From contig NZ_CP126741.1 in NCBI RefSeq assembly GCF_030246905.1, forward strand, positions 1,364,001 to 1,428,000: a DNA stretch of 64,000 nucleotides, written 5' to 3'. Below, piece after piece: positions 14,448-27,829 of the stretch (positions are counted from its first letter, which is position 1; every line of letters begins with the position of its first letter). This DNA comes from Microbacterium sp. zg-Y818. Its GTDB lineage: Bacteria > Actinomycetota > Actinomycetes > Actinomycetales > Microbacteriaceae. The translations under genes were made by a program, and so were the position numbers. The notes under the pieces were generated by a model that made no database searches, was not told the DNA's origin, and was given only the letters and a program-made list of their open reading frames with translations.

Positions 14448-14710
14448 TGCCGATCGTCGTCGACATCGACGTCATGCTCGCCCGACGCAAGATGCCGGTC
14501 GCGGTGCTCGCCGAACGCGTGGGCATCACGGCGGCGAACCTCGCCGTGCTGAAGAACGGACGTGCGAAAGCGGTGCGCTTCACCACCCTCGAGGCGCTCT
14601 GCCAAGCCCTCGACTGTCAGCCGGGCGACCTGCTGCGGTGGGAGCCGCAGGGCGCGGTCGACCTTTCGCCGCACGCAGAAGGGGAAGCGACCGCCGACGC
14701 GAGGGCGTGA
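14447..14710 (+). CDS. YozG/XRE-family helix-turn-helix regulator
   Basis: An 87-residue DNA-binding protein. The helix-turn-helix spans about residues 16-60 (VAVLAERVGITAANLAVLKNG, then LEALCQALDCQPGDLLRW), the compact Cro/C1-like form that often accompanies DUF2975. It is translationally coupled to the membrane protein. It probably binds the palindrome at 13918-13934; this has not been shown. The last 20 residues are acidic and variable. Confidence 0.85.
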   Translation: MPIVVDIDVMLARRKMPVAVLAERVGITAANLAVLKNGRAKAVRFTTLEALCQALDCQPGDLLRWEPQGAVDLSPHAEGEATADARA

Positions 14711-14800
14711 CCTGCCTCATCCGATCCGCCCTCGCAACCCCCGTTCGCGCGCCGTCATCGATCGGTAGCGTTCCCCGCACACCCACGCGAGGAGGACGGC

Positions 14801-15766
14801 ATGGCTCGGTTCGGATACACACTCATGACGGAGCAGAGCGGTCCACGTCAGCTCGTGGACTACGCGGTGAAAGCCGAGGCGGCCGGGTTCGACTTCGTCG
14901 TCTCGAGCGATCACTACTCCCCCTGGCTCACCGCTCAGGGGCACGCCGCATATGCCTGGAGCATGCTCGGGGCCGTCGCCTACGCCACCCACGACGTGGA
15001 GCTCATGACCTACGTCACCTGCCCGACCATGCGCTATCACCCCGCGATCGTCGCGCAGAAGGCGGCGACGATGCAGCTGCTCTCGGAGGGCCGCTTCACC
15101 CTGGGCCTCGGGTCCGGTGAGAACCTGAACGAGCATGTCGTCGGCGAGGGGTGGCCGGCGGTGCAGATGCGCCAGGACATGCTGGTCGAGGCGATCGAGA
15201 TCATCCGTGCGCTGCACACCGGAGAGCTCGTCACCTACGACGGCCAGTACTTCCGGGTGGATTCGGCGCGCATCTGGGACTGCCCCGAGGGTGGCGTGCC
15301 TCTCGGCGTCGCGGTGTCGGGCGAGTCCTCCATCGAGCGGTTCGCGGGACTGGCTGACCATCTCATCGCGGTGGAGCCGCAGGCGGAGCTGATCGAGGGG
15401 TGGGATGCCGTGCATCCAGAGGCATCCCGCAAGATCGGCCAGATCCCGATCAGCTGGGACCCCGACCGCGAGGCGGGGATCGCACGCGCCCACGAGCAGT
15501 TCCGGTGGTTCGCGGGCGGATGGTCCGTCAACGCGGACCTGCCGACGCCGGCCGGCTTCGCCGCGGCATCCCAGTTCGTCCGGCCCGAAGACGTCGCCGA
15601 ATCCATCGCCGCGGGCCCCGACCTGGACGAGCTGGCCGAGAGCGTACAGCCCTTCCTGGACGCGGGCTTCACCGACGTCGCGATCGTGCAGGTCGGCGAC
15701 GAGCAGCAGGACCGCTTCGTGACCGAGGTCGCCCGGCCGCTCCTGGAGAAGCTGCGCACGCTCTGA
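14801..15766 (+). CDS. F420-dependent LLM-class oxidoreductase
   Basis: A 321-residue luciferase-like (alpha/beta barrel) flavin or F420 oxidoreductase. The N-terminal FGYTLMTEQ, the SSDHYSPW segment and the LGLGSGENLNEHVVG motif are typical of the actinobacterial subfamily that includes F420-dependent glucose-6-phosphate dehydrogenase-like enzymes. The physiological substrate is unknown. The ATG follows AGGAGG by 6 bases. It stands alone, with 90 bp to the regulator upstream. Confidence 0.88.
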   Translation: MARFGYTLMTEQSGPRQLVDYAVKAEAAGFDFVVSSDHYSPWLTAQGHAAYAWSMLGAVAYATHDVELMTYVTCPTMRYHPAIVAQKAATMQLLSEGRFTLGLGSGENLNEHVVGEGWPAVQMRQDMLVEAIEIIRALHTGELVTYDGQYFRVDSARIWDCPEGGVPLGVAVSGESSIERFAGLADHLIAVEPQAELIEGWDAVHPEASRKIGQIPISWDPDREAGIARAHEQFRWFAGGWSVNADLPTPAGFAAASQFVRPEDVAESIAAGPDLDELAESVQPFLDAGFTDVAIVQVGDEQQDRFVTEVARPLLEKLRTL

Positions 15767-15884
15767 CCCTGCCGCGCGCCCTCGCCCTTCCGAATCTCAC
15801 CGGTGGAGCCGGATGTTCACGCCCGCGTGACGCGTGGCCTAAGCTGGTACCGAGGATCCCGCGTCATCTGCGCGGCCCTCGACC

Positions 15885-15920
15885 GAAGGCCAGGGCTTCC
15901 ACCCCTGGCCTTCACCTTTT
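15885..15920 (+). terminator. Rho-independent terminator, possibly of a short transcript
   Basis: A perfect 11-bp stem: GAAGGCCAGGG at 15885-15895 pairs with 15903-15913 around a 7-base loop, followed by ACCTTTT. It lies 119 bp past the oxidoreductase stop, so it either ends that message or belongs to a small RNA (see findings). Confidence 0.75.
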
Positions 15921-15937
15921 GCCGGCCGCTGGGCGCC

Positions 15938-16120
15938 TCAATCCTCCGCGTCCGCGATGGCCTCGCCGTCGGCGTCGAGCGGTATCGGGCGCTCATGCGG
16001 TGGCAGGGGCTCCGGCAGGCCCGTCTCCGGGTCGAGGGGGCGATCGTCGTCGATGAAGGGGATGGGGACGCCCGTGCGAGGGTCGATGAGACCCTCGCCG
16101 TCGGGGATACTCAGGCTCAT
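15938..16120 (-). CDS. Small acidic proline-rich protein with an internal repeat
   Basis: A 60-residue protein of unknown function. It holds two copies of a DPxTGxPxP unit, at residues 13-21 (DPRTGVPIP) and 30-38 (DPETGLPEP), followed by an acidic tail (DADGEAIADAED). A good ribosome-binding site (AGGAAAGG) lies 6-13 bases before the ATG, which is the main reason I believe it is translated. It has no signal peptide or membrane segment and is probably disordered. I do not recognise a named family. Confidence 0.6.
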   Translation of the reverse strand: MSLSIPDGEGLIDPRTGVPIPFIDDDRPLDPETGLPEPLPPHERPIPLDADGEAIADAED

Positions 16121-16411
16121 GTCGCTTTCCTTTCCTCTCGGCCAGGATGCGACGCTGCCGGGGGCCGCGCACCCCGTTGACGGGGGCGCAGCCCCCCGCT
16201 AGGCCGCGACAGCGTGTTGCAGATTCTGCACGGTCGTCTCGGATGGCCGACCTCCATACTCCGCCGCGGCGGTGTCGTCGTGCTCGTGGGATCGGCGCCC
16301 GTTATAAACACGGTCGATTAGGCATATAGGTGAATCACCCTCGCCCATAGGCGTGCATCCTCGTATGTTGGCGATGAGGCATTGCCGCCCCGCCTACCCG
16401 AGACATCGAGG
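16121..16411 (+). promoter_or_regulatory. Promoter region of the ABC importer operon
   Basis: This 291-bp gap has an AT-rich segment at about 16300-16375, unusual for this genome. It contains CCGT-TATAAAC-ACGG (an inverted CCGT/ACGG pair with a -10-like core) and then ATTAGGCATATAGG, another -10-like element. A TATAAAC core also lies upstream of the catabolic operon, in the matching orientation. No hairpin or small gene is evident in the rest of the gap. Confidence 0.4.
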
Positions 16412-17251
16412 ATGATGACCCTGGACACCGATGCGACCGTCGGCCTTGACGAGCGCGATATGCCCGCCCCTGCCCTGACGATCCGTGACGTGGGCATCGG
16501 CTTTCGCGGCGTCCGCGCGCTGGACGCCGTCAGCTTCTCGATCCCTCGCGGCGGAACGAGCGCGGTCATCGGGCCCAACGGGGCGGGCAAGACGACCCTG
16601 TTCAACTGCATCAGCGGGATCTACCGCCACGAGGGCGAGATCGAGCTGGCCGGCCGGCCCATGAGCGGCGTGCCTGCGCAGGCCCGGGCGATTGCAGGCA
16701 TCGCCCGCACCTTCCAGACGCCCGCGCTCCTTCCCGACCTCAACGTCTTCGAAAACGTCCTGCTGGGTGCGCACGGTGCAATGCGCGCCGGAATGTGGTC
16801 CGCCGCGCTGCGGATCGGCCGAGCGAGCCGCGAGGAACGCGCCGTCCGCCTCGAGGCGTGGGATCTGATGGGTCCGCTCGCGCTGCAACCTCTGGCGCTC
16901 GCGCCGGTGAGCAGCCTGGCCCACGCCGATCGACGCCGAGTGGAAGTGGCGCGCGCGCTGCTGTCACGTCCCTCGCTGCTCCTGCTCGACGAACCCGCCG
17001 CCGGACTGAGTGCCGACGAAGCCGACGAACTGCTGGAGGTCATCGCCGACTTCGGGGCCGACACACACATGACGAGCCTCCTCGTCGAGCACGACGTCGG
17101 CCTCGTCATGCGCGTCGCTCGCTTCGTCGCGGTGCTCGACGCCGGCCGGCTGCTCGCCTCCGGGGACCCGACAACCGTGTCCGCTGACCCCCGCGTGATC
17201 GCCGCGTACCTCGGTGCCGACGCGCCTTCTGACGGGGAGCTGCTGCCATGA
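16412..17251 (+). CDS. ABC transporter ATP-binding protein, LivG-type
   Basis: One of two cytoplasmic ATPases of a branched-chain-type importer, 279 residues. Walker A (GPNGAGKT) is near residue 54, the Q-loop lies in FQTPALLP, Walker B and D-loop are LLLLDEPAAGLS, and the H-loop is LLVEHD. The signature motif, normally LSGGQ or LSYGQ, reads LAHAD (SSLAHADRRRVEVARAL) and lacks the glycine, which is odd. The start is uncertain: ATGs at 16412 and 16415 have GAGG almost touching, and an internal ATG about 16 codons later is possible. The stop overlaps the next start (ATGA). Confidence 0.85.
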   Translation: MMTLDTDATVGLDERDMPAPALTIRDVGIGFRGVRALDAVSFSIPRGGTSAVIGPNGAGKTTLFNCISGIYRHEGEIELAGRPMSGVPAQARAIAGIARTFQTPALLPDLNVFENVLLGAHGAMRAGMWSAALRIGRASREERAVRLEAWDLMGPLALQPLALAPVSSLAHADRRRVEVARALLSRPSLLLLDEPAAGLSADEADELLEVIADFGADTHMTSLLVEHDVGLVMRVARFVAVLDAGRLLASGDPTTVSADPRVIAAYLGADAPSDGELLP

Positions 17252-18021
17252 CCGTCCTCACGACCCAGAACCTCCGCGCGCGCTACGGCGGGGTCGAAGT
17301 GCTCCACGGTGTGGATCTCACCGTCGAGGAGGGTGAGATCGTCGCCTTGCTCGGCGCGAACGGCGCCGGCAAGACGAGCCTGCTCCGTGCCATCTGCAGG
17401 CAGGTCGACTCGACCGGTGCCATCACACTCGACGGCACCCGCATCGACAAGATGACGACGGCGCGCGTGGCCCGCCTCGGCATCGGCCATGTCCCCGAGG
17501 GCCGCGGAACCTTCACGGAGCTGACCGTCGAGGAGAACCTGCGCCTGGGCATTCTCGCCCGGCCTCGCCCCGTGCGTGCGACGGCGGACGAGGACCTGGA
17601 CCTGATCAATGAGACCTTCCCGGTGCTGCACGAGATGCGCGGCCGCCAGGCGGGGGCGCTGTCGGGAGGACAGGCGCAGATGCTCGCAGTGGCGCGGGCA
17701 CTTCTCGCCCGACCCCGGCTGCTTCTCGTCGACGAGCCGTCACTGGGGCTCGCCCCCCTGACCACGCTGGAGCTGTTCAACCGCTTCCAGTCGCTGCGGG
17801 ACGCGTGGTCGCTGACGATCCTGCTCGCCGAGCAGAATGCGCGATTGTCGCTGCGGGTGGCCGACCGCGCGGTCGTCCTCACCCGGGGTCGTGTGTCGCT
17901 CGAGGGCCCCGCCGCGGATCTGCAGGATCACGACGCGCTGCGTGCGGCCTACCTCGGCGAGGGGCCGTCCGCTCCTGCGGACCGCCCGTTCCCTTCGACC
18001 CGAGGAGCGCTCGATGACTGA
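17248..18021 (+). CDS. ABC transporter ATP-binding protein, LivF-type
   Basis: The second ATPase, 257 residues. All motifs are intact: Walker A GANGAGKTS near residue 38, the LSGGQAQM signature, Walker B LLLVDEPSLGLAP, and the H-loop replaced by LLAEQN as is usual in LivF. It overlaps the LivG-type gene by four bases and the first permease by eight bases, so the operon is tightly coupled. Its signature motif is normal, unlike that of its partner, so the dimer should keep at least one canonical ATP site. Confidence 0.92.
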   Translation: MTVLTTQNLRARYGGVEVLHGVDLTVEEGEIVALLGANGAGKTSLLRAICRQVDSTGAITLDGTRIDKMTTARVARLGIGHVPEGRGTFTELTVEENLRLGILARPRPVRATADEDLDLINETFPVLHEMRGRQAGALSGGQAQMLAVARALLARPRLLLVDEPSLGLAPLTTLELFNRFQSLRDAWSLTILLAEQNARLSLRVADRAVVLTRGRVSLEGPAADLQDHDALRAAYLGEGPSAPADRPFPSTRGALDD

Positions 18022-18895
18022 GTTCTTCCAGATCTTCCTGGACGGCCTCACCACCGGAACCGTCTACGCCGCCCTCGCCCTGGCGCTGAGCGTCGTGTTC
18101 CAAGGCACCGGCATGCTGAACTTCGCGCAGGGGGAGCTCGCCGTCGTGGCCGCCTTCATCGCGTTCACGACGCTGTCGACCGGCATCTCGCCGTGGCTCG
18201 CGATCCTGATCGCCGTCGCCGCATCCGCCGTGATCGGCGCCCTCGTGCACGTGCTGGTGGTCCGCTGGGCCGACACCCGCAATGAAGGCGTGCTGATGGC
18301 GATGGGTGTGGCGTTGCTCCTCGGGATCAGCGCGCTCGCCGGCATCATCTGGGGAACCGACCCGCGCAGCTACCCCAGCCCCTTCGGCTCCGGACTCATC
18401 GAGTTCGCCGGACTGCGCCTCACCTACCAGCAGGCCGGTGGCGCGCTCCTCGTCGTCGTCGCGATGAGCCTGACCGCGCTCCTCTTCCAGAAGACCCCGA
18501 TCGGATTGCGTCTGCGCGCCGTCGCGCAGAATGCCCCCTCGGCGGCACTGCTGGGGCTGTCGGCCCCCGTGTGGCTCGCCCTGGGGTGGGCGATCGCCGG
18601 CGCCGTCGGCGCGGTGGCCGGCGTCGTGGCCGCCCCCACCCTGGGACTGTCCCCGTCGATGATGAACTTCCCGCTGTTGATGGCCCTCGCCGCCGCCACG
18701 CTCGGAGGCTTGACCAGTCGAGTGGGCGCGGTCGTCGGTGGCCTGCTGATCGGCGTCGTCACGGCGTTCGCCGGCCGGTACATCCCCTTCCTCGGCGGGG
18801 ACCTCAACATCGTGGTCGCCTTCGTCCTCATCGTGATCGTCCTGCTTGTCAAGCCCGGCGGACTCTTCGGAAAAGAGCGGATGGTGCGCGCATGA
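18014..18895 (+). CDS. Branched-chain-type ABC permease, LivH family
   Basis: A 293-residue inner-membrane permease with about eight hydrophobic helices, starting FLDGLTTGTVYAALALALSVVFQGTGMLNFAQGEL, the family hallmark. The ATG at 18014 lies within the end of the LivF-type gene and is preceded by CGAGGAG. Upstream codons in the same frame only overlap the ATPase. Substrate choice is set mainly by the binding protein, and homologues serve amino acids, urea and aromatic acids. Confidence 0.92.
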   Translation: MTEFFQIFLDGLTTGTVYAALALALSVVFQGTGMLNFAQGELAVVAAFIAFTTLSTGISPWLAILIAVAASAVIGALVHVLVVRWADTRNEGVLMAMGVALLLGISALAGIIWGTDPRSYPSPFGSGLIEFAGLRLTYQQAGGALLVVVAMSLTALLFQKTPIGLRLRAVAQNAPSAALLGLSAPVWLALGWAIAGAVGAVAGVVAAPTLGLSPSMMNFPLLMALAAATLGGLTSRVGAVVGGLLIGVVTAFAGRYIPFLGGDLNIVVAFVLIVIVLLVKPGGLFGKERMVRA

Positions 18896-20010
18896 CCAGT
18901 CCCATCCCCTACCCCCATGCGCGGCCCTGGTACCGCACCCCGCGGGGCCTGCTCACCCTCGCCCTGTTCTCGGTGGGCGTCGCGATCCCGTTCCTGGTGA
19001 GCGACTACGACCTGTTCAACATGACGCGCGTGCTCGCGATCGCTCTGGGTGTGGCGGGTCTGAACCTCCTCGTCGGGTTCTCGGGGCAGATCAGCGTCGG
19101 CCACGGCGCGATCTTCGGCATCGGCGGCTACACGACGATGCTCCTGATGCTGAGGATCGACGTGCCGTGGCCGCTCGCCCTCGTGGCGAGCATCGGCGCA
19201 GGGCTCCTCGTCGGCCTCGTGATCGGCATTCCGGCGCTGAAGCTCGGCGGACTGAACCTCGGGCTGTTCACCATAGCCATCGCCGCGGTCTTCCCGCTCG
19301 TGGTGAGCCGGTTCAGTGACTTCACGGGCGGGACCGTGGGGCTGGCGCTGCCGACCTCTCCCTTCGTCGCGCCCGACGGGATCGCGCTCACGCCCGCCCA
19401 GTTCGGTTTCCTCTTCGCCCTCCTGGCGCTCGCGGGCGCGCTCGTGCTCCTCCGCAACATCACGGTGGGTCGCTTCGGCCGCGCCTACGCCGCGGTTCGG
19501 ACGAACCGGATCCTCGCCGTGTCCAACGGCGTGCGCGTGCCCCAGCTGAAGCTCATCGCCTTCGTCGTCAGCTCGGCCGTGGCGGGTCTGGCCGGCGGCA
19601 TCCTCGTGCTCGTCCTGACGGTCGCGACGCCCGACAGCTACCTGCTGACGTTCTCGCTGATCCTGCTCATGGCCGCCACGGTCGGAGGCAGCCGCTCGTG
19701 GATCGGCGCGATCGTGGGTGCGGCGATCGTCGTGTACCTCCCCGACTTCGCCAGCAAGGTCCTGCCCGGCCAGGCGTCAGGGCAGTTCGCCCAGCTCATC
19801 TTCGCCGTGCTCCTCGGTGTCTGCCTGATCCTCGCGCCCGGCGGCCTGGCCGCGTGGGGCACGTCGATCGCCCGCCGCGGCGCCGCGCTCGTGCGCGGTC
19901 GCCGAAGCACCGCCCCACGCACCCCCGAGACCGAATCCGGCAGCAGCACCGACCCCGAGTCCTATCCCGAAACAACAACAGCATTCACACGAAAGGAAGC
20001 GAATCGATGA
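18892..20010 (+). CDS. Branched-chain-type ABC permease, LivM family
   Basis: A 372-residue partner permease with about ten membrane helices and the family motif LNLLVGFSGQISVGHGAIFGIGGY. The last 50 residues are hydrophilic and rich in Arg, Thr, Glu and Ser, and look like a disordered cytoplasmic tail. The ATG at 18892 overlaps the LivH-type stop by four bases. The gene's own stop overlaps the binding protein start. Confidence 0.92.
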   Translation: MTSPIPYPHARPWYRTPRGLLTLALFSVGVAIPFLVSDYDLFNMTRVLAIALGVAGLNLLVGFSGQISVGHGAIFGIGGYTTMLLMLRIDVPWPLALVASIGAGLLVGLVIGIPALKLGGLNLGLFTIAIAAVFPLVVSRFSDFTGGTVGLALPTSPFVAPDGIALTPAQFGFLFALLALAGALVLLRNITVGRFGRAYAAVRTNRILAVSNGVRVPQLKLIAFVVSSAVAGLAGGILVLVLTVATPDSYLLTFSLILLMAATVGGSRSWIGAIVGAAIVVYLPDFASKVLPGQASGQFAQLIFAVLLGVCLILAPGGLAAWGTSIARRGAALVRGRRSTAPRTPETESGSSTDPESYPETTTAFTRKEANR

Positions 20011-21236
20011 TGAAGACGTCACGACGAGCTCGCTCCGCCGTCATCTCCGCCGCCGCGGTAGCGGTCACCGCACTGCTGCTCAGCGGCTGCACGGGACGGC
20101 AGGCCGCGAACGAACCAGCCGCTGAGCCGCAGGATGACAGCCCGATCGTCATCGGGGCCAGCTGGCCCCAAAGCGGGCCGCTCGCCGCCGCGGCCGCAGG
20201 CTTGCACGGCTTCGAGGCCTACATCGAGATGACCAACGCCGAAGGCGGCATCGACGGACGCGAGATCAAGCTCGTCACCGCTGACGACGGCTATGACCCC
20301 GCCCGTCTCGCCGACAACCAGCGCAGCTTCGTGGAGAAGGAGGGCGCCATCGCCGTCGTCAACTTCGGCGGCATCGCGGTTCCCGGCCGGCCGTATCTCA
20401 ACGACAAGAAGGTCGCGCAGATCGCACTGGCCGGGCAGACCCCGCTCAGCGACGTGGAGAACTTCCCCTATACGCGCGCCTTCTGGCCCGACGTGGTGTG
20501 GGAGGGCCAGCTGCACGCCCAGTGGCTGCAGGAGAACCGCCCCGACGCGGTCGTCGGCTTCATCGGGTTCAACAACGACCTCAGCGAGAGCCACATCGCG
20601 GGTCTCGAGGCCGGTGGCCTGGCCCCCGCGCAGGTCGCCATGGTTCCCCCGGGCACGGCCGACCTCACCGCGCAGGTCAGCCAGTTCCAGGCGGCGGGCG
20701 TGGACACCGTCATCATCAACATCGGCGCCCCCACGATCGGCGCGGTCACGAAGTACATGGACGAGATCGGCTACGAGCCCACTCTCCTGCTCGCAGGCAA
20801 CATGGCCGACTTCGTCACCGTGGTCGACCCCGCCGGCGCGGACGCCGTCGCCGACGCCTACGCGTTCCACTGGGGCAAGGACCCGGCCGACCCGAAGAAC
20901 GCCGAGGATGCCGCGACCCAGACGTTCATCGAGGTCATGACCGAGTACGGCTACGAGAGCGACATCCGACAGGCCCTCGCGTTCAACGGCTACGGACTGG
21001 GTGCCGCGCTGGTGGAGGCACTGAACAACGCTCCCGAGCTGACCGCAGACGGGCTGCTCGAGGCGTGGGACGCTCTCGAGGACACCGAGAACCCGTACCT
21101 CCAGGACGGCATGACGCTGGACGCGGGCTTCGGCGGGCGACTCATCTTCCAGGTGCAGCTCACGCAGTTCGACGGTGAGACCTGGGTGCCGCAGGGCGAC
21201 GTGATCGACCTCCGCGACCTCGGCATCGTCGAATAG
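20007..21236 (+). CDS. ABC transporter substrate-binding lipoprotein, LivK-type
   Basis: A 409-residue lipoprotein. The signal peptide ends in LLLSGC with the lipidated Cys 28, and a Leu/Ile/Val-type periplasmic binding fold follows (IVIGASWPQSGPLAAAAAGLHGFEAYI, then GREIKLVTADDGYDP). It should capture the substrate outside the membrane for the two permeases. The ligand is not known; the convergent aromatic catabolic operon suggests an aromatic or related acid. Start: ATG 20007 with GAAAGGA 9 bases upstream; ATG 20010 is equally possible. It is the last gene before a strong terminator. Confidence 0.92.
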   Translation: MMKTSRRARSAVISAAAVAVTALLLSGCTGRQAANEPAAEPQDDSPIVIGASWPQSGPLAAAAAGLHGFEAYIEMTNAEGGIDGREIKLVTADDGYDPARLADNQRSFVEKEGAIAVVNFGGIAVPGRPYLNDKKVAQIALAGQTPLSDVENFPYTRAFWPDVVWEGQLHAQWLQENRPDAVVGFIGFNNDLSESHIAGLEAGGLAPAQVAMVPPGTADLTAQVSQFQAAGVDTVIINIGAPTIGAVTKYMDEIGYEPTLLLAGNMADFVTVVDPAGADAVADAYAFHWGKDPADPKNAEDAATQTFIEVMTEYGYESDIRQALAFNGYGLGAALVEALNNAPELTADGLLEAWDALEDTENPYLQDGMTLDAGFGGRLIFQVQLTQFDGETWVPQGDVIDLRDLGIVE

Positions 21237-21248
21237 CCGCAACGCAAG

Positions 21249-21287
21249 AGATCGCCCCCCGCACGGATACCGTGCGGGGGGCGATCT
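21249..21287. terminator. Bidirectional terminator between importer and catabolic operon
   Basis: A perfect 18-bp stem with a 3-base loop (ATA): 21249-21266 pairs with 21270-21287. It sits between two converging operons and should stop transcription from both sides. Confidence 0.9.
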
Positions 21288-21307
21288 TCTGTGCTCCCGA
21301 GGAGCCG

Positions 21308-22279
21308 TCAGCGACGACGCGCCCGTGAGCGCGGGCGTGCGGGCGGCAGAACCGGAGCCGGCACGGGCGCGCCGACGCGGGCGCGGATCTCGCCGATGCC
21401 CTCGACGACCATCCGCACCTCGTCGCCGGTCTGCAGCGGAGGCGGAATGAGGCCCTGGTTGCGTCCCCACAGCTCGCCGAGGCATCCACCGTTGCCGACG
21501 GTGCCCGAGCCGAGCACATCGCCGGGGACCACTCGCGAGTTGCGCGACGCGTACGCCACGAACTCCGGGAACGGCCAGCCCGCGTTGGACACGAGGTCCT
21601 CGCCGACGAGCGCGTCGTTGACGTACACCTCGGCGTGGACGGCGAGGAAGCCCTCCGCGTCGAGGTAGGGCGCGAGCTCGTCCGCCGTCACGATCCAGGG
21701 CCCCAGCGTCGTGCCGAAGTCCTTGCCCTTGCACGGCCCGAGGCGCACCTTCATCTCGCGGGCCTGCAGGTCGCGGGCCGACCAGTCGTTCATGATCGTG
21801 TACCCGAAGATGTGCTCGGCGGCCGCGTCCGGCGTGAGGTTGGACCCCGTCGATCCCGGCACTGCCCCGATCACGACGGCGACCTCGAGCTCGAAGTCGA
21901 GGCGCTCGGTGACCGGTGGCGTGACCTCCTGGAACGGGGCGAGGATCGTGTGCGGGTTCGTGAAGTAGAACGTCGGCGCCTGGTACCACTCGGGCGGCAC
22001 GTCGCTCTTCCCCTCCACTCCGGCACTGACGCCTTCGACGTGCTCCTCGAAGGCGACGAAGTCGCGCACGGAGGGCGGTACGACGGGGGCGAGGAGGTCC
22101 ACGTCGGCGAGCGGGATGCCGGCGGTGTCGGCGACGCGCGACAGCAGCGCGGCCGCTCCGTCGATCCCCCGGGCGAGGGCGTGGGCGACCGTCAGCCCGT
22201 CGGGGAAGGGCACGACGCGGTCGTCCACGACGAAGCCCTCCCCCACGGTCTCTTCGTGGGTCCAGCGAGCGATTCTCAT
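21308..22279 (-). CDS. FAH-family hydrolase/hydratase (second copy in the cluster)
   Basis: A 323-residue fumarylacetoacetate hydrolase-family enzyme. The metal ligands Glu 130, Glu 132 (LDFELEVAVV) and Asp 165 (YTIMNDWSARDLQ) are present. Family members cleave or hydrate acylpyruvates and 2-oxo-dienoates from ring cleavage. The early EEH motif (residues 78-80) resembles fumarylacetoacetase-like and 2-hydroxyhepta-2,4-diene-1,7-dioate isomerase-like proteins. The ATG at 22279 overlaps the amidohydrolase stop by four bases. It is last in the operon. The tail (ARPRSRARRR) is strongly basic, which is unusual. Confidence 0.88.
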   Translation of the reverse strand: MRIARWTHEETVGEGFVVDDRVVPFPDGLTVAHALARGIDGAAALLSRVADTAGIPLADVDLLAPVVPPSVRDFVAFEEHVEGVSAGVEGKSDVPPEWYQAPTFYFTNPHTILAPFQEVTPPVTERLDFELEVAVVIGAVPGSTGSNLTPDAAAEHIFGYTIMNDWSARDLQAREMKVRLGPCKGKDFGTTLGPWIVTADELAPYLDAEGFLAVHAEVYVNDALVGEDLVSNAGWPFPEFVAYASRNSRVVPGDVLGSGTVGNGGCLGELWGRNQGLIPPPLQTGDEVRMVVEGIGEIRARVGAPVPAPVLPPARPRSRARRR

Positions 22280-23298
22280 GCGTTCACCGTCTTTCCCAGC
22301 AGGGCCGCCGCGTTCGAGCGCAGGATGCGCTCCGCGGTCTGCGGTGCGAGACCGGCGGACTCCACGAAGGCGACGGGATCCTCCGAGCCCATGTCGAACG
22401 GGAAATCGCTGCCGAGCACGACCTGGCTCTCGCCGGCGACCTCGATGAGGTGACGCAGCGCGCCGGCGTCGTGGACGACCGTGTCGAACCAGATCTTCCG
22501 CAGGTAGCTGGACGGTGCGTGCGCGCAGCCGCGCGCATCGGGACGCACGCGCCACGCGTGATCGCTGCGGCCGATCGAGGTCGGCAGGTACCCGCCGCCG
22601 TGCGCCGCGACGAGCCGAAGACCGGGGTGACGGTCCAGCACCCCCGCGAAGATCAGGTGCGACAGGGCGACGGCGTTCTCGACGGGCTGCCCGACGGTGT
22701 TGGCGAGGTAGAACCGGTCGAGCCGCTCGTCGAGCGAGCAGCCGAACGGATGCAGGAAGACGACGCAGCCGAGCTCCGCCGCGCGCGCCCAGAACCGCTC
22801 CAGCCGCTCATCCGACAGTTCCACGTCACCGGCGAAGGAGGAGATCTCCACCCCCGCGAGCCCGCGGCCGAGCACGGCGTCGTCGAGCAGTTCGACGAGG
22901 CGCTCCGGATGCTGCAGGGGCACGAGTCCCAGTCCCACGAGGCGATCGGGCGCCTGTGCGGTGTGCTCTGCGATGAGGCGGTTCGCTTCGGCCGCGGCCC
23001 ACACCGCAAGTCCCTCGGGCGCCCACGGATAGAAATGGTTGGGCGAGGCGCTGACCCACTGCACGTCGACGCCCTGCGCGTCCATCGCCACCAGGCGCAG
23101 GCCCACGTCGGTGAGCTTGGGGACGCGGGCACCGACCATCGGTCCTGACACCGCCTGGCTGTCGGCACCGTGGCGCACGAGCTCCAGTGCAGCGGCCTCG
23201 GCGACGAGATCGGGGGCGCGGCGCGCGACCTCGGCGTGCAGCCCAGGCAGGAGAAGATGGGCGTGGACGTCGGTGACGGGCTGCCGCGGCGCGGTCAT
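22276..23298 (-). CDS. ACMSD-like amidohydrolase/decarboxylase
   Basis: A 340-residue TIM-barrel amidohydrolase of the aminocarboxymuconate-semialdehyde decarboxylase group. Metal ligands are His 12 and His 14 (DVHAHL), His 184 (FLHPFG), His 234 (AAHGGG) and Asp 299 (GSDFPFD). Related enzymes decarboxylate aromatic acids or ring-cleavage products without redox change. Here it could decarboxylate the substrate or a cleavage product. It overlaps both neighbours by four bases, so it should be made in step with them. Confidence 0.88.
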   Translation of the reverse strand: MTAPRQPVTDVHAHLLLPGLHAEVARRAPDLVAEAAALELVRHGADSQAVSGPMVGARVPKLTDVGLRLVAMDAQGVDVQWVSASPNHFYPWAPEGLAVWAAAEANRLIAEHTAQAPDRLVGLGLVPLQHPERLVELLDDAVLGRGLAGVEISSFAGDVELSDERLERFWARAAELGCVVFLHPFGCSLDERLDRFYLANTVGQPVENAVALSHLIFAGVLDRHPGLRLVAAHGGGYLPTSIGRSDHAWRVRPDARGCAHAPSSYLRKIWFDTVVHDAGALRHLIEVAGESQVVLGSDFPFDMGSEDPVAFVESAGLAPQTAERILRSNAAALLGKTVNA

Positions 23299-24428
23299 GC
23301 GGGCTCCGCCATCTTCTGCGCGATCCCGAAGATCAGCCCGCCGGCGTCGGCGCTGCGATCACCGTCGATCTGCCATTGGCCGAGTTGCACCGACGCCGCC
23401 ACCACCGCCCCCGCGCGGGGGATGCGGCGGGCGTGGAACTCGTCCCACATCCCCTGGTCGAGGCTCTCGCCCCGCGTGAGCAGTTCGGTGAGGACGAAGG
23501 CATCCTCCAGCCCCTGCGCGGCGCCCTGGGCGATCGTCGGGGGGCAGCTGTGCGCGGCGTCACCGATGATGACCACGCGGCCACGGTTCCACGGCTCTGC
23601 CACGAGATGCTGCGTGAACCACGTGTAGTGCGCGTCGGCGCCGGCTTCGATGTCGGCGCGGATCTGGTTCCACGGCCCGTCGTACGCGCGCGATGCCTCG
23701 AGCATGAGCCGGCGCGCCTCGTCAGGGTCGACGCCGAAGCGGTCTTCGGCCTTCTCCACGAGGAACGCGTACATGCTGTCCTCACCCGTCGGGGTGTAGC
23801 CGGCGATGTAGACCGGTCCGCCGTAGTAGAGCGTGCTGCGTTCGACCTCCGCCGGGCGCGAGACGAACGTGCGCCAGATCCCCATCCCCGTCGACTCGGG
23901 CTTCGCCTCGATCCCGATGAGCTCGCGCACCGTCGAGTGCAGCCCATCCGCGCCGATCACGAGGTCGTAGCGACCCGCAGGCGCGCCCTCGATCTCGATC
24001 TGGACGCCGTCCGCATCCTGGGTGAGGCCGGTCAGCTTCGCCCCGAAGTGCACCTGCACGCCCGCGCGCTCGGCGTGCGCCAAGAGGATGCGGGCAAGCT
24101 CTGCCCGCGGCATCCCCATCCCGGCCGGATAATCCGGACCTCCCGTCTTCACATCGGGAAGCTCGGCGACCACGGGAGCACCGGGACCGGGCGCGCGCAA
24201 GGTGAGCCCCTCGAACGGGTATCCGGCCTCGCGGATGTCGTCCCACGCGCCCAGCGCGTCGAACACCCGCAGGGCGTTGCCCTGCAGGCTGATGCCGGAG
24301 CCGAGGGCGGTCAGCTGCGGCTTGGCTTCGAAGAGATCGACCTCGACGCCGGCCTTGGCCAGCTGGATGCCGGCGGCCAGGCCGGCGACGCCGGACCCCA
24401 CGATCGCGACGGTGTGCACTGCAGTCAT
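23295..24428 (-). CDS. FAD-dependent aromatic monooxygenase (group A)
   Basis: A 377-residue flavoprotein hydroxylase of the salicylate or 3-hydroxybenzoate hydroxylase type. FAD motifs are GSGVAGL (residues 11-17), the DG motif (VIGADGLHSTVR, near 160) and the GD motif (VIIGDAAHSCPPTIAQG). It should use NAD(P)H and oxygen to hydroxylate a ring and prepare it for cleavage. A short inverted repeat (CAGAAC/GTTCTG, 24431-24448) covers its ribosome-binding site. It lies 42 bp after the cyclase gene stop, the largest gap in the three middle genes. Confidence 0.9.
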   Translation of the reverse strand: MTAVHTVAIVGSGVAGLAAGIQLAKAGVEVDLFEAKPQLTALGSGISLQGNALRVFDALGAWDDIREAGYPFEGLTLRAPGPGAPVVAELPDVKTGGPDYPAGMGMPRAELARILLAHAERAGVQVHFGAKLTGLTQDADGVQIEIEGAPAGRYDLVIGADGLHSTVRELIGIEAKPESTGMGIWRTFVSRPAEVERSTLYYGGPVYIAGYTPTGEDSMYAFLVEKAEDRFGVDPDEARRLMLEASRAYDGPWNQIRADIEAGADAHYTWFTQHLVAEPWNRGRVVIIGDAAHSCPPTIAQGAAQGLEDAFVLTELLTRGESLDQGMWDEFHARRIPRAGAVVAASVQLGQWQIDGDRSADAGGLIFGIAQKMAEPA

Positions 24429-24470
24429 GTCAGAACCTCTCTGTTCTGTTCGGGTGTGCGGTGGTGTGTG

Positions 24471-25469
24471 TCAGAAGACGGCCACCGGATTGATCGGCGA
24501 ACCGACCGCCCCGGTGATCGGCAGTGGTGGCGCCGACAGCAGCACGTCCCAGCGTCCGCGTGCGGCGCACGCGTCGGCGAGCTCGTCGAAGTCCCACATC
24601 TCGCCGATCGTGAGTCCCATGTTCGGGATAGCGATCTGGTGCAGCGGCTGGAACGACGGCGCGTCGAACTCGTTGGGGCGCACTTCGAAGCCCCACGTGT
24701 CGGTGGCGACCGCTGCGATCTCGCTCCGGTGCAGCCAGCCGGCGGTGGTCAGCGACATGCCGGCCGCTTCGCCGCCGGCATAGTCGTTCCACCCCTCGCG
24801 TCGGGCACGGGCGAGCCGGCCCGTGCGCACCAGCAGGATGTCGCCGCGTCCGACCCGGCTGGACTCCCCCTGTGCCGCGATGCACGCGTCGAGGTCGGCG
24901 GCGGTGATGCCGTAGCCGTCGGGCAGTTCTCCGGTGTCGGGCTGCAGGAAGCGGCCCATGTCGAGCAGGACGCCACGGGAGACGATGACAGCGGCCGCGT
25001 GCTCGATCCCGGTGACGAGGTCGCCGTCACTGGTGACGACATCGCCCGCACGGCGACCGTTCCACGCCATCCCGTGGTCGAAGATGTGGCCGAGGCCGTC
25101 CCACTGCGTGGAGCACTGCAGAGGCATCGTGATGTAGTCGTCGGCGCCGCCGATGCCGTGCGGGAACGGCTGGTTGCCGCGTTCGGCGTCGGTGCCGGTG
25201 TCGGTCATGGTGTGGACGGGATTGATCCGGCGCCGCCACCCCTTCTGGGGGCCGTCCGTGTTGAACGCCTGCGACAGCGAGACGACACGCCCTTGCGTCA
25301 CGAGTGCCGCCGCCTCGACGCGCTTGGCCTCGTCGATGAAGTTGAGGGTGCCCAGGACGTCGTCCTCGCCCCACCGGCCCCAATTGCGATACGCCATCAC
25401 GCGCGCGGCGATCTCGCCTTCGGGATCGTTGCGGTCGAGGTCGGCGGGATGTTCGCTCGGCGCGGTCAT
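24471..25469 (-). CDS. Cyclase-family (kynurenine formamidase-like) metal hydrolase
   Basis: A 332-residue protein of the cyclase superfamily that includes kynurenine formamidase and isatin hydrolase. These enzymes normally use an HxGTHxDxPxH motif to bind metal. Here the stretch is STQWDGLGH (residues 120-128): Asp 124 and His 128 are kept, but the first His of the motif is Gln 122. I believe this is a known subgroup of larger cyclase proteins. It may hydrolyse an amide or lactone made by ring oxidation. It overlaps the upstream FAH gene by four bases. Confidence 0.85.
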   Translation of the reverse strand: MTAPSEHPADLDRNDPEGEIAARVMAYRNWGRWGEDDVLGTLNFIDEAKRVEAAALVTQGRVVSLSQAFNTDGPQKGWRRRINPVHTMTDTGTDAERGNQPFPHGIGGADDYITMPLQCSTQWDGLGHIFDHGMAWNGRRAGDVVTSDGDLVTGIEHAAAVIVSRGVLLDMGRFLQPDTGELPDGYGITAADLDACIAAQGESSRVGRGDILLVRTGRLARARREGWNDYAGGEAAGMSLTTAGWLHRSEIAAVATDTWGFEVRPNEFDAPSFQPLHQIAIPNMGLTIGEMWDFDELADACAARGRWDVLLSAPPLPITGAVGSPINPVAVF

Positions 25470-26431
25470 GCGGCCGCCTCCGCGACGCAGCGGACGACTT
25501 GCGTGCCGACGCCCTCGATCGTGCCGGTCATCACGTCACCGTCGCGCAGGAATCGTTTCCAGTGCTGGCCGTTGCCCGCGGGGCTGCCGGTGAGCAGGAT
25601 GTCGCCCGGCAGAAGCGGCAGCGTCTGGGACGCGGTCGACACGAGCGCGGCGACGTCGAAGACCAGCTCCGCGGTCGTGGCATCCTGCATCACCTCGCCG
25701 TTCAGCTCCAGGCGGATGGCGAGGTTCGCGGGGTCAACGAACGGCGCCGGGACGAGGTAGGGCCCCGTGGGGAGGAAGCCCGGCGCGTTCTTGGCGCTGA
25801 ACCAGTCGGCGCCGATGTCGCCCACGTCGGAGGGGAAGAGCAGATCGCGGGTCGAGATGTCGTTGGTGATCGTGTACCCCGCAACGTGGCTCATGGCCTC
25901 GTCTCGCCCCACGCGGAACGCCTCGGGGCCGATGACGACGGCGAGTTCGAGCTCCCAGTCATGCACGTCACTGTAGGACGGAAGCGTGAGGGGGACGTCG
26001 TCTCCCACGACGCACTGCGGCATGCCGATGAAGACGAACGGGCGACCGCTGGCGGCGCGCGCATCCATGATGCGTTCGGCACGGGCCCGCGCCTCCTCCG
26101 GCGTCAGCGCCGACTCGCCCTTGGTCAGTCCGCCGACGATCAGCTGCACGACGTGCGTGCGGTAGTTCGCGCCGGCCTGGAGCACCTGCCGCGGCTGCAC
26201 CGGCGCGGTCAGGACCGCCTCGGACAGCGCAGTCCACGGCCCCTCCGCCTCGGCGAGCGCGGCGAGGCGGTCCCAGTCGGGGGCTGCGAGGAACGCGTTC
26301 AGATCGGACGCACCGAGTTCCTCCTCACCGAGGGGGCGGATGCGGTCGCCCGCGACGAGCCCGAGAACGACATCATCGCCCTGTCGGTATCGGCCGAGCG
26401 CGAAGGGGGCGGTGGGTGGGGTATGGGTCAT
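25466..26431 (-). CDS. FAH-family hydrolase (first copy in the cluster)
   Basis: A 321-residue fumarylacetoacetate hydrolase-family enzyme with metal ligands Glu 160, Glu 162 (HDWELELAVV) and Asp 191 (YTITNDISTRDLL). It differs clearly from the second copy at 21308-22279, so the two probably act on different steps, such as hydration or isomerisation versus C-C hydrolysis. The ATG at 26431 lies 76 bp after the dioxygenase stop with GAGGAGG upstream. Confidence 0.88.
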   Translation of the reverse strand: MTHTPPTAPFALGRYRQGDDVVLGLVAGDRIRPLGEEELGASDLNAFLAAPDWDRLAALAEAEGPWTALSEAVLTAPVQPRQVLQAGANYRTHVVQLIVGGLTKGESALTPEEARARAERIMDARAASGRPFVFIGMPQCVVGDDVPLTLPSYSDVHDWELELAVVIGPEAFRVGRDEAMSHVAGYTITNDISTRDLLFPSDVGDIGADWFSAKNAPGFLPTGPYLVPAPFVDPANLAIRLELNGEVMQDATTAELVFDVAALVSTASQTLPLLPGDILLTGSPAGNGQHWKRFLRDGDVMTGTIEGVGTQVVRCVAEAAA

Positions 26432-26507
26432 GAATCCTCCTCGAGTCGTGACGTAGTGCGACCCGGGACGGCCGCTTCAGCGGCCGCCCCGGGACAGAGA
26501 ACAGCGC

Positions 26508-27521
26508 TCAGCCGTGACGGGTGTACGGGTTCAGCAGCGCCGCCTTGATCTCGTCGGGCACGCCTTCCTCCGTGGCGGTGGGCCCGTCGGCGGGCGGGAA
26601 CGACTCGGTCATCGACATCGGCATGGCGCCGTTGCGGTACATGTTGCTCGACCCGAGCGACGGCTTCCACGTCTGCGGCTCCCAGTCGGGCACGTAGTTG
26701 CGGTACCCCCCGGTGTTCAGTTCGACCCGCATGCTCGAGGGCTCACGGTAGTAGAGGAAGCTCTGCTCGCCGATGCCGTGGATGGAGGGCCCGTACTCGA
26801 TCGCGGTGCCGCGCTCCATCAGGACGTCGGCGGCGATCAGCAGCTCCTCCCGCGTGTCGACCCAGAAGGCGTAGTGGTTGACCCGCCCGGCGCGCGAGGA
26901 TCCGTCGAGCACAACGCCGAGGTCGTGAGACTTCTCGTTCGTGGTCAGCACCGAGAACACCGACATCGGCGCTTCGTCGAGCACGGTACGGGCCATGATC
27001 CGGAAGCCCAGCACCTCGTTGTACCAGCGCGCGAATCCGTCGACATCGCTCGTGGCGATCGTGACGTGGTCGAGCTGGCGGGGGGCGCCGGCAACGTGGC
27101 TGCGCTTCTGCGGACGGTCGGGGTAGATCGACGCGACCGACGGATCTGCGCGGTGGCGCGTGACGTCCCAGTGCAGGGTCATCGAGTGTCCCCACGGTCC
27201 CGTGAAGCGGTAGGCGCGACCGATGGCGTGCGCCTCGATCCATTCGCCCTGCACTCCGGCGCCCTCGATGCGGCGGACGGCCTCTTCCAGCGCCTCGGCA
27301 CTGGAAGTACGCCATGCCATCGTCTCGAGAGAGGGCTCGTCGCCGGGCACCACCACGAGCGAGTAGGCGTAGTAGTCGCCCCAGCAGCGCAGGTAGACGG
27401 CATCGCCCACGCGGTCGACTTCGGTGAGACCGACCTGATCCTTGTAGAACTCCACCGAGGCCTCGACATCCGTCGACGTGATCGAGACGTACGAGAGGTG
27501 GGAGAGAAGCGTGATCATCAT
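26508..27521 (-). CDS. Type I extradiol ring-cleavage dioxygenase (VOC family)
   Basis: A 337-residue two-domain vicinal oxygen chelate enzyme. The second domain carries the full iron triad: His 152 (LDHVTIATS), His 216 (VNHYAFWVD) and Glu 267 (MRVELNTGG), with likely second-sphere His 199, His 249 and Tyr 257. The first domain lacks the triad, as is usual. It should open a catechol-like ring next to its hydroxyl groups, and it heads the operon. Start: ATG 27521 or 27518, just after GAAAGGTC; the frame extends 32 codons further without a ribosome-binding site. Confidence 0.9.
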   Translation of the reverse strand: MMITLLSHLSYVSITSTDVEASVEFYKDQVGLTEVDRVGDAVYLRCWGDYYAYSLVVVPGDEPSLETMAWRTSSAEALEEAVRRIEGAGVQGEWIEAHAIGRAYRFTGPWGHSMTLHWDVTRHRADPSVASIYPDRPQKRSHVAGAPRQLDHVTIATSDVDGFARWYNEVLGFRIMARTVLDEAPMSVFSVLTTNEKSHDLGVVLDGSSRAGRVNHYAFWVDTREELLIAADVLMERGTAIEYGPSIHGIGEQSFLYYREPSSMRVELNTGGYRNYVPDWEPQTWKPSLGSSNMYRNGAMPMSMTESFPPADGPTATEEGVPDEIKAALLNPYTRHG

Positions 27522-27716
27522 TGACCTTTCCGAGAGGGCTTCCATGCGCCTCGTGTTTCCCACTATCCGCATCTCGGACGTATCAGGGAACACCCGGTTG
27601 CCAATGCGCAGCATCAATCCCGTTTATATGTAGGCCCGATGGGTGTGCCAGTGTTCCACGCTGCGCTCGCGTCGAGTACTTTGCGCGATAGGCAGCCGGA
27701 GAGTGCCCCAAAGCAA
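27522..27716 (-). promoter_or_regulatory. Promoter region of the catabolic operon
   Basis: On the minus strand this gap carries CATATAAACGGG at about 27622-27633, a -10-like TATAAA about 105 bases before the dioxygenase start. The importer promoter has a matching TATAAAC core in the same relative orientation, which could mark a common regulator or only two AT-rich -10 elements. No gene is visible in the gap. Confidence 0.35.
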
Positions 27717-27753: not shown

Positions 27754-27829
27754 TGGCTCCCCGGCTTGGACTCGAACCAAGAACCTATCGGTTAACAGCC
27801 GATTGCTCTGCCAATTGAGCTACCGAGGA
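27754..27829 (-). tRNA. tRNA-Asn (anticodon GTT)
   Basis: A 76-nt cloverleaf with encoded CCA. The acceptor stem pairs TCCTCGG with CCGGGGA and the discriminator is G. Anticodon GTT is at 27794-27796, and the T-arm pairs CTTGG with CCAAG around TTCGAGT. It sits between the catabolic operon promoter and the ABC ATPase gene, marking the accessory cluster's right edge; tRNA genes often border inserted regions. Confidence 0.95.

Follow-up and report, generated by a model that had tools for sequence, protein, structure and literature searches.

An eleven-gene cassette in Microbacterium sp. zg-Y818, whose genome is a single contig of 3.23 Mb, probably encodes uptake and A-ring meta-cleavage of flavonoid-type aglycones whose A ring is 5,7-dihydroxylated. 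The cassette lies in a stretch of 64,000 nucleotides (NZ_CP126741.1, positions 1,364,001 to 1,428,000), here called the window, and coordinates are those of the window unless the genome is named. We favour a flavonoid-type aglycone because genes for glycoside-cleaving enzymes adjoin relatives of the cassette, and because a hydrolase of the kind found in the fde and ifc flavonoid routes takes the place of two of its enzymes in sister clusters. On these grounds the simple aromatic or heterocyclic acid that an original prediction, made from the window's letters, had proposed as the substrate is not supported.

The cassette and its recurrence in Actinobacteria

A five-gene LivGFHMK importer operon (16412-21236, + strand) converges on a six-gene catabolic operon (21308-27521, - strand) transcribed, from 27521 to 21308, in the order VOC, FAH1, CYC, FMO, ACMSD-like and FAH2:

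16412..17251, +, livG, ABC ATPase (PF00005, PF12399)
17248..18021, +, livF, ABC ATPase (PF00005)
18017..18895, +, livH, permease, start codon not fixed (PF02653)
18892..20010, +, livM, permease (PF02653)
20007..21236, +, livK, substrate-binding protein (PF13458)
21308..22279, -, FAH2, fumarylacetoacetase-like; predicted 3,5-dioxo-acid hydrolase, last step
22276..23298, -, ACMSD-like amidohydrolase; predicted pyranone carboxylate decarboxylase
23295..24428, -, FMO, FAD monooxygenase; predicted A-ring hydroxylase
24471..25469, -, CYC, PF04199 cyclase-type hydrolase; predicted pyranone lactonase
25466..26431, -, FAH1, HpcE/acylpyruvase-like FAH enzyme; predicted acylpyruvate hydrolase
26508..27521, -, VOC, catechol 2,3-dioxygenase-type extradiol dioxygenase; predicted A-ring cleavage

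The Pfam families (ABC_tran twice, BPD_transp_2 twice and Peripla_BP_6 on the + strand; FAA_hydrolase twice, Amidohydro_2, FAD_binding_3, Cyclase and the extradiol Glyoxalase on the - strand) and the gene layout bear out the original prediction of an importer facing a six-gene operon of the named enzyme families, and support its pairing of import with meta-cleavage. The coordinated expression that it envisaged has a basis in the close packing: intergenic gaps are -4, -5, -4 and -4 bp in the importer operon and, in ascending coordinates, -4, -4, 42, -4 and 76 bp in the catabolic operon, with overlaps of 4-5 bp. FAH2 most likely starts at 22279 rather than at the start of the longer open reading frame. 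The genome holds two more PF04199 cyclase genes (genome positions 1974857-1975315 and 2028003-2028437), 34-35% identical to CYC.

We scanned species genomes with CYC and compared the 80 best actinobacterial loci, drawn from at least 566 relatives and spanning at most 10 kb on each side of CYC (some contigs end earlier). A second sample, drawn from 28 genomes, comprised 34 further loci once two duplicates had been set aside. Locus counts are not independent, and a CYC tree serves as a guard. The co-occurrence check suggested with the original prediction shows that the set recurs across Actinobacteria: all six kinds of enzyme, counting either VOC or a second dioxygenase type, VOC2, were present in 54 of the 80 loci. 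FMO and FAH2 accompanied CYC in 78/80, and FAH1 was found in 58; VOC occurred in 64 and VOC2 in 14, one locus having both and three neither. Within the genus, 32/119 genomes, the source genome counted, held CYC relatives (E <= 1e-60). Within the class the figure was 41/394 with a different CYC as query (E <= 1e-70), a count that includes relatives only about 50% identical.

Two observations concern the sampled loci themselves. In a record (L013) labelled Planococcus sp. APC 4015, the cluster is 70-81% identical to that of the window, and its CYC groups within Microbacterium; perhaps this is a mislabelled or mixed assembly. Three loci of family f25 (L159, L160, L161) form a divergent CYC branch, 60-62% identical to the window CYC, in genomes that hold a second CYC locus.

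FAH1 and the ACMSD-like enzyme alternate with an alpha/beta hydrolase

ACMSD was present in the same 58 loci as FAH1. An alpha/beta hydrolase was found in 20 others, no locus had both, and two (L042, L053) had neither. The 34 further loci gave 22 with the pair, eight with the hydrolase, two with ACMSD alone (L159, L161), two with neither (L132, L134) and again none with both; nor was FMO or VOC found in L132 and L134, which span 14.0 and 15.5 kb. On the CYC tree (114 proteins, four unlabelled ones left uncounted) the label changes nine times (8-10 in bootstraps), and at least four changes are forced by well-supported branches. We conclude that the pair and the hydrolase probably do the same job, because they never occur together at a locus and the label changes repeatedly on the tree, although transfer of CYC itself could also explain the changes. 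VOC or VOC2 combines with either the pair or the hydrolase, all four combinations occurring among the 80 loci.

The nearest solved relative of the hydrolase of these sister clusters is 2JBW, a 2,6-dihydroxypseudooxynicotine hydrolase. According to the available part of the ifc description (PMC11069340), the latter enzyme breaks a C-C bond, and ifc locus 59470 resembles it. A hydrolase of this type is absent from the window cluster; the 20 sister loci that carry it are ones without FAH1 and ACMSD. Hydrolases of fde-like proteobacterial operons are 50% identical to the actinobacterial enzyme.

Glycoside-cleaving genes adjoin related clusters

A C-glycoside oxidase or deglycosidase gene adjoins 34 of the 80 loci (oxidase 28, deglycosidase 29), and 40 have at least one sugar-removal gene when GH78 rhamnosidase is included. 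The deglycosidase matches 7DNM (93 bits), which we take to be a C-glycoside deglycosidase, and the Pfam family CGDB (29.9 bits, cut-off 27.6). The best solved relatives of the oxidase are 8QVE, 7DVE and 7QF8 (340-379 bits), of which 7DVE is MtCarA and 7QF8 is PsG3Ox, as named in the available text of PMC11673046. Genes that could serve later steps also occur beside the clusters, protocatechuate 3,4-dioxygenase in 6/80 loci and 3-oxoacid CoA-transferase in 13/80; the source genome holds a protocatechuate dioxygenase and two CoA-transferase genes.

One deglycosidase (L011:2213-3604) has both subunits fused, residues 6-110 resembling DUF6379/CGDB beta chains and 143-457 the alpha TIM barrels, whereas structures of this type have alpha and beta as separate chains. 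Relatives of this protein occur in 28 other loci.

Enzyme identities and the proposed pathway

All catalytic motifs sought were present, with key residues invariant or nearly so among relatives of at least 43% identity (VOC 67, FAH1 80, CYC 114, FMO 109, ACMSD-like 82, FAH2 112). In VOC, H151, H215, E266, H198, H247 and Y256 are invariant in the 67 relatives and supply the two His and one Glu ligands and the catalytic His and Tyr of the superfamily, roles assigned by analogy with XylE. Its best solved relative is 9WGJ, named a catechol 1,2-dioxygenase (173 bits). Sequence comparison bears out the ACMSD-like label, since the solved relatives that score best, at up to 163 bits, are ACMSDs; H12, H14, H183, H233 and D298, presumably the metal ligands, are invariant. 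This protein had no NCBIfam match at E <= 0.001, and so none to a kynurenine-route equivalog. FAH1 is related to HpcE and the acylpyruvase FAHD1. The best solved relatives of FAH2 are fumarylacetoacetases, with which its DF....H (D, H), ELE and NDWSARD motifs align; the motif aspartates, histidine and glutamates are invariant in 112 relatives, and we take their roles to be those of mouse FAH. The AlphaFold model of CYC, built with 18 close relatives as input, is poor in the likely active-site region (mean pLDDT 63.6).

Every match of the set to a named NCBIfam equivalog scored under its cut-off. VOC reached 245.7 bits against 320.2 for catechol 2,3-dioxygenase (TIGR03211) and 151.7 against 321.4 for HpaD, FAH1 118 against 276.4 for HpaG, and FAH2 86 against 375 for TIGR01266. 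FMO, nearest to 6-hydroxynicotinate 3-monooxygenase, passes only PRK06847, a subfamily model without a function. Kynurenine, hydroxybenzoate and 4-hydroxyphenylacetate routes had been considered first, and were dropped because these named families fell below their cut-offs.

In the pathway that we propose, LivGFHMK would take up the compound and FMO would hydroxylate C8, beside the 7-OH. VOC would then cut C8-C8a of the 7,8-diol, turning ring C into a 4-hydroxy-2-pyranone (a lactone) with an acylpyruvate side chain. FAH1 would hydrolyse the acylpyruvate to pyruvate and a pyranone carboxylate, which the ACMSD-like enzyme would decarboxylate. CYC would open the lactone to 5-aryl-3,5-dioxopentanoate or a saturated analogue, a product predicted to differ from fumarylacetoacetate only at its acyl end, and FAH2 would split this fumarylacetoacetate-like diketo acid into acetoacetate and the B-ring acid. 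The products could pass to CoA transfer and thiolysis, and to the beta-ketoadipate pathway if the acid is protocatechuate. In sister clusters the single alpha/beta hydrolase may carry out both the FAH1 and the ACMSD steps, releasing oxaloacetate and yielding the same lactone. The original prediction's hydroxylation before ring cleavage, its decarboxylase and its two different FAH enzymes all find support here.

A putative remote regulator

A degenerate pattern, TATAAACNNGNYYGAT, allowing at most one mismatch, matches the genome three times. One match lies 93 bp upstream of livG and another 91 bp upstream of VOC; the third precedes the likely start of a LysR gene (G000:C1:86118-87023, L126) by about 47 bp. 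The two cassette sites are:

16303..16318, +, putative LysR operator TATAAACACGGTCGAT, 93 bp upstream of livG
27613..27628, -, putative LysR operator TATAAACGGGATTGAT, 91 bp upstream of the dioxygenase gene VOC

The reversed-pattern control gave one match, with one mismatch. The degenerate positions were set after all three sites had been seen, and the match count is suggestive, not proof, because the pattern was fitted to its sites. The LysR protein shares 74% identity with the operon-adjoining LysR of a relative (genome G066), and a LysR gene lies beside 44/80 and 27/34 of the related loci; here it is encoded at 86-87 kb of the genome. The LysR of the fde pathway is FdeR. We think that the LysR protein encoded elsewhere in the genome probably switches on both operons, as judged from these sequence matches. 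The original prediction had noted the lack of a regulator; none lies inside the interval, as it said, but the LysR gene at 86-87 kb shares its promoter motif with both operons. No pathway genes surround this LysR gene, next to which lies a purL-like gene recognised by eye.

Besides G066, seven other loci (L157, L001, L012, L067, L007, L004, L009) gave one match with two mismatches (L004) and otherwise nothing. The only near-perfect dyad (12 of 13 positions) stood before livG of G066, the dyads seen elsewhere being unrelated. The motif may therefore be local to the lineage.

Placement and probable movement of the cassette

The block that contains both operons and operators is closely matched at a different place in G066:

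16293..27635, strand not applicable, cassette block, 96.6% identical to a block in relative G066
27754..27829, -, tRNA-Asn adjoining the cassette

The G066 block lies near 0.29 Mb and aligns over 11351 bases. The primase gene of G066 (dnaG-like, recognised by eye), at 1.58 Mb, is 84% identical, and the chromosome flanking the cassette on both sides is 81-87% identical to G066. Both G066 and G433 are without the cassette at the tRNA-Asn site. The cassette most likely moved between sites or strains, because of the 96.6% identity at another G066 site as against 84% for the primase, and because G066 and G433 lack it at the tRNA-Asn site. About 1.6 kb immediately before the cassette (14655-16293) also has no counterpart at the same G066 site; it holds an F420-dependent oxidoreductase gene (14801-15766, TIGR03557).

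Alternative explanations

The same kind of chemistry could act on another plant polyphenol aglycone, a xanthone, anthraquinone, chromone, dihydrochalcone or isoflavone, and the neighbouring genes are compatible with this, CarA-type oxidases and soil deglycosidases also acting on carminic acid (an anthraquinone) and mangiferin (a xanthone) in the available portions of PMC8563793 and PMC10646112. The reading of CYC and FAH2 as lactonase and diketo-acid hydrolase, however, requires ring C to be a pyranone, as in a flavonoid or chromone, and the fde and ifc routes, in the parts of their descriptions available, act on flavanone and isoflavones (PMC10755750, PMC11069340); we regard such a substrate as unlikely. 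A monocyclic or heterocyclic aromatic acid route of hydroxybenzoate, anthranilate or kynurenine type would fit the nearest relatives of VOC (catechol and homoprotocatechuate dioxygenases), of FMO and of the decarboxylase. It appears quite improbable, given the sub-threshold equivalog scores described above and the absence of an aldehyde dehydrogenase and an aldolase from the eleven genes. Moreover, it leaves unexplained the glycoside-cleaving neighbours, the mutual exclusion with a C-C hydrolase of the fde/ifc kind, and the pairing of a cyclase with a fumarylacetoacetase-like enzyme.

That the importer is a generic transporter lying beside the catabolic operon by chance we consider rather unlikely. 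LivK occurs in only 2/80 and 1/34 of the related loci, so other transporters must serve there, and in G084 it is unlinked to CYC. Against a chance association, LivK relatives (E <= 1e-60) were found in 6/119 genomes of the genus; each of the six is one of the 32 that hold CYC, in five LivK lies within 4 kb of it, and both operons are preceded by the same promoter motif.

Several results weigh against the assignment of the cassette to flavonoid-type aglycones. The link to sugar removal appears to be mainly one of Microbacteriaceae, because among the 34 further loci C-glycoside genes adjoin only one and GH78 genes two (CoA-transferase genes, eight). GH78 is found in just 7/80 loci, once at only 34% identity, and the C-glycoside oxidase matches, at least 71% identical to the query in 26 of 28, fall to 39-40% in the other two. 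In the source genome the C-glycoside oxidase query matched nothing, in a search made without a positive control, and no GH78 was found; the deglycosidase was not searched there. The likeness to fde and ifc is drawn from published descriptions, and the sequences compared are those of proteobacterial operons called fde-like by gene content. The VOCs of these operons share 24-27% identity with the window VOC over 123-214 amino acids (VOC2 is nearer, at 26-34%), their cyclases barely match CYC (25%, E ~1e-4), and the FAH2 motif DF..F..H was found in 0/6 other proteobacterial FAH proteins tested. The Rieske partner FdeD is not in the six-gene operon, where gaps are at most 76 bp, the rest of the genome not having been searched. 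In the available text on fde, the steps after the lactone are hydroxylation, ring opening, decarboxylation and dehydration to a butenone (PMC10755750), an end that differs from ours, while in that on ifc the cupin IfcD acts on the pyranone X3 and daidzein loss continued after disruption of the alpha/beta hydrolase gene (PMC11069340). No experimentally tested enzyme of the set was found in the literature searched.

The A-ring route for flavonoid-type aglycones nevertheless remains our preferred assignment. To the more embracing account we give slightly less than an even chance: a flavonoid route, undescribed and widespread among Actinobacteria, where an ACMSD-family decarboxylase, a cyclase-family lactonase and a FAH-family diketo-acid hydrolase represent new functions, the FAH1/ACMSD pair and the C-C hydrolase have been swapped repeatedly, and the genes form a mobile cassette, often tied to sugar-removal genes and here served by a remote regulator. 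Flavonoids shape root microbiomes, and the A-ring routes in the literature surveyed are those of Proteobacteria and, judged by metabolites, one fungus. If true, this account would provide a gene-level route from glycosides to central metabolites for Actinobacteria including Microbacterium, Arthrobacter, Streptomyces and Geodermatophilus, would suggest functions for generally annotated enzyme families, and would be an instance of one enzyme and an unrelated pair replacing each other repeatedly.

Comparison with known systems

The enzyme set was not described in the literature searched, most subscription papers lying outside its reach. Whether the cluster matches an already described pathway, the outcome that was to count against the original prediction, therefore has a divided answer: the first steps resemble fde and ifc, but the whole enzyme set is in no description found. 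The cassette would work like fde and ifc, yet we do not count it as a member of either, because a search of the cluster found neither the Rieske partner nor the alpha/beta hydrolase.

According to the available part of PMC10755750, in the naringenin route of Herbaspirillum FdeE hydroxylates C8, FdeC opens the A ring and oxaloacetate is putatively lost, leaving a 3-oxo-delta-lactone. The fde system of H. seropedicae SmR1 is like the route proposed here in its FAD monooxygenase for C8, its A-ring dioxygenase and its lactone intermediate (PMC10755750, PMC8552027, PMC11303751, each available in part). The Microbacterium cluster differs in having no Rieske protein, cupin or alpha/beta hydrolase, in its FAH1 and ACMSD-like pair, in a dioxygenase from another branch, in its ABC importer and in its actinobacterial host. 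The fde-like plasmid operons of Azospirillum, Diaphorobacter and Burkholderia, which group hydrolase, VOC, Rieske, FMO, cyclase and FAH genes, are closer, since a PF04199 cyclase and a FAH enzyme are encoded there too. Their FMOs are 35-38% identical to the window FMO, a group A FMO standing beside a VOC extradiol dioxygenase as it does here, and by score their FAH enzymes are closer to FAH2 than to FAH1. Rhizobium K84 has, less than 7 kb from a hydrolase of the fde/ifc type, a dioxygenase that shares 49% identity with the window VOC. Plasmid searches with CYC returned unrelated clusters or unannotated records.

A plasmid of Sphingobium sp. TomTYG65 (L094 / L169) carries genes for MFS, FMO, a VOC2-like dioxygenase, alpha/beta hydrolase, cyclase, FAH, Gfo/Idh and TIM-barrel proteins, with a beta-glucosidase gene adjacent. 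FMO, VOC, hydrolase, cyclase and FAH stand there in the same order as the proposed steps, and this run is likely a glycoside-to-ring-cleavage operon in a proteobacterium.

In Variovorax sp. V35, as far as the available text of PMC11069340 goes, IfcA 8-hydroxylates daidzein and IfcB carries out the dioxygenase step; the hydroxypyranone X3 builds up in cells without both cupins, and the gene for the step to X3 remained unknown. The ifc system shares with the route proposed here the initial FMO and VOC, and the pyranone, and has an alpha/beta hydrolase gene as do the sister clusters. X3 is handled there by the cupin IfcD, whereas a cyclase-type lactonase and FAH2 are proposed in Microbacterium.

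Two of the enzymes also have relatives in amino acid catabolism. The fumarylacetoacetases of the tyrosine pathway are the nearest solved relatives of FAH2, whose predicted substrate bears an aryl group where theirs bears a fumaryl group; the ACMSD-like protein differs from its nearest solved relatives, the ACMSDs of the kynurenine pathway, in co-occurring with FAH1 at 58/58 loci. Finally, the C-glycoside deglycosylation clusters of soil Actinobacteria (CarA/CGD and PsG3Ox; PMC8563793, PMC10646112 and PMC11673046, each available in part) adjoin relatives of the operon at the 34 loci described above. Such clusters free the aglycone, which the Microbacterium operon is predicted to degrade.

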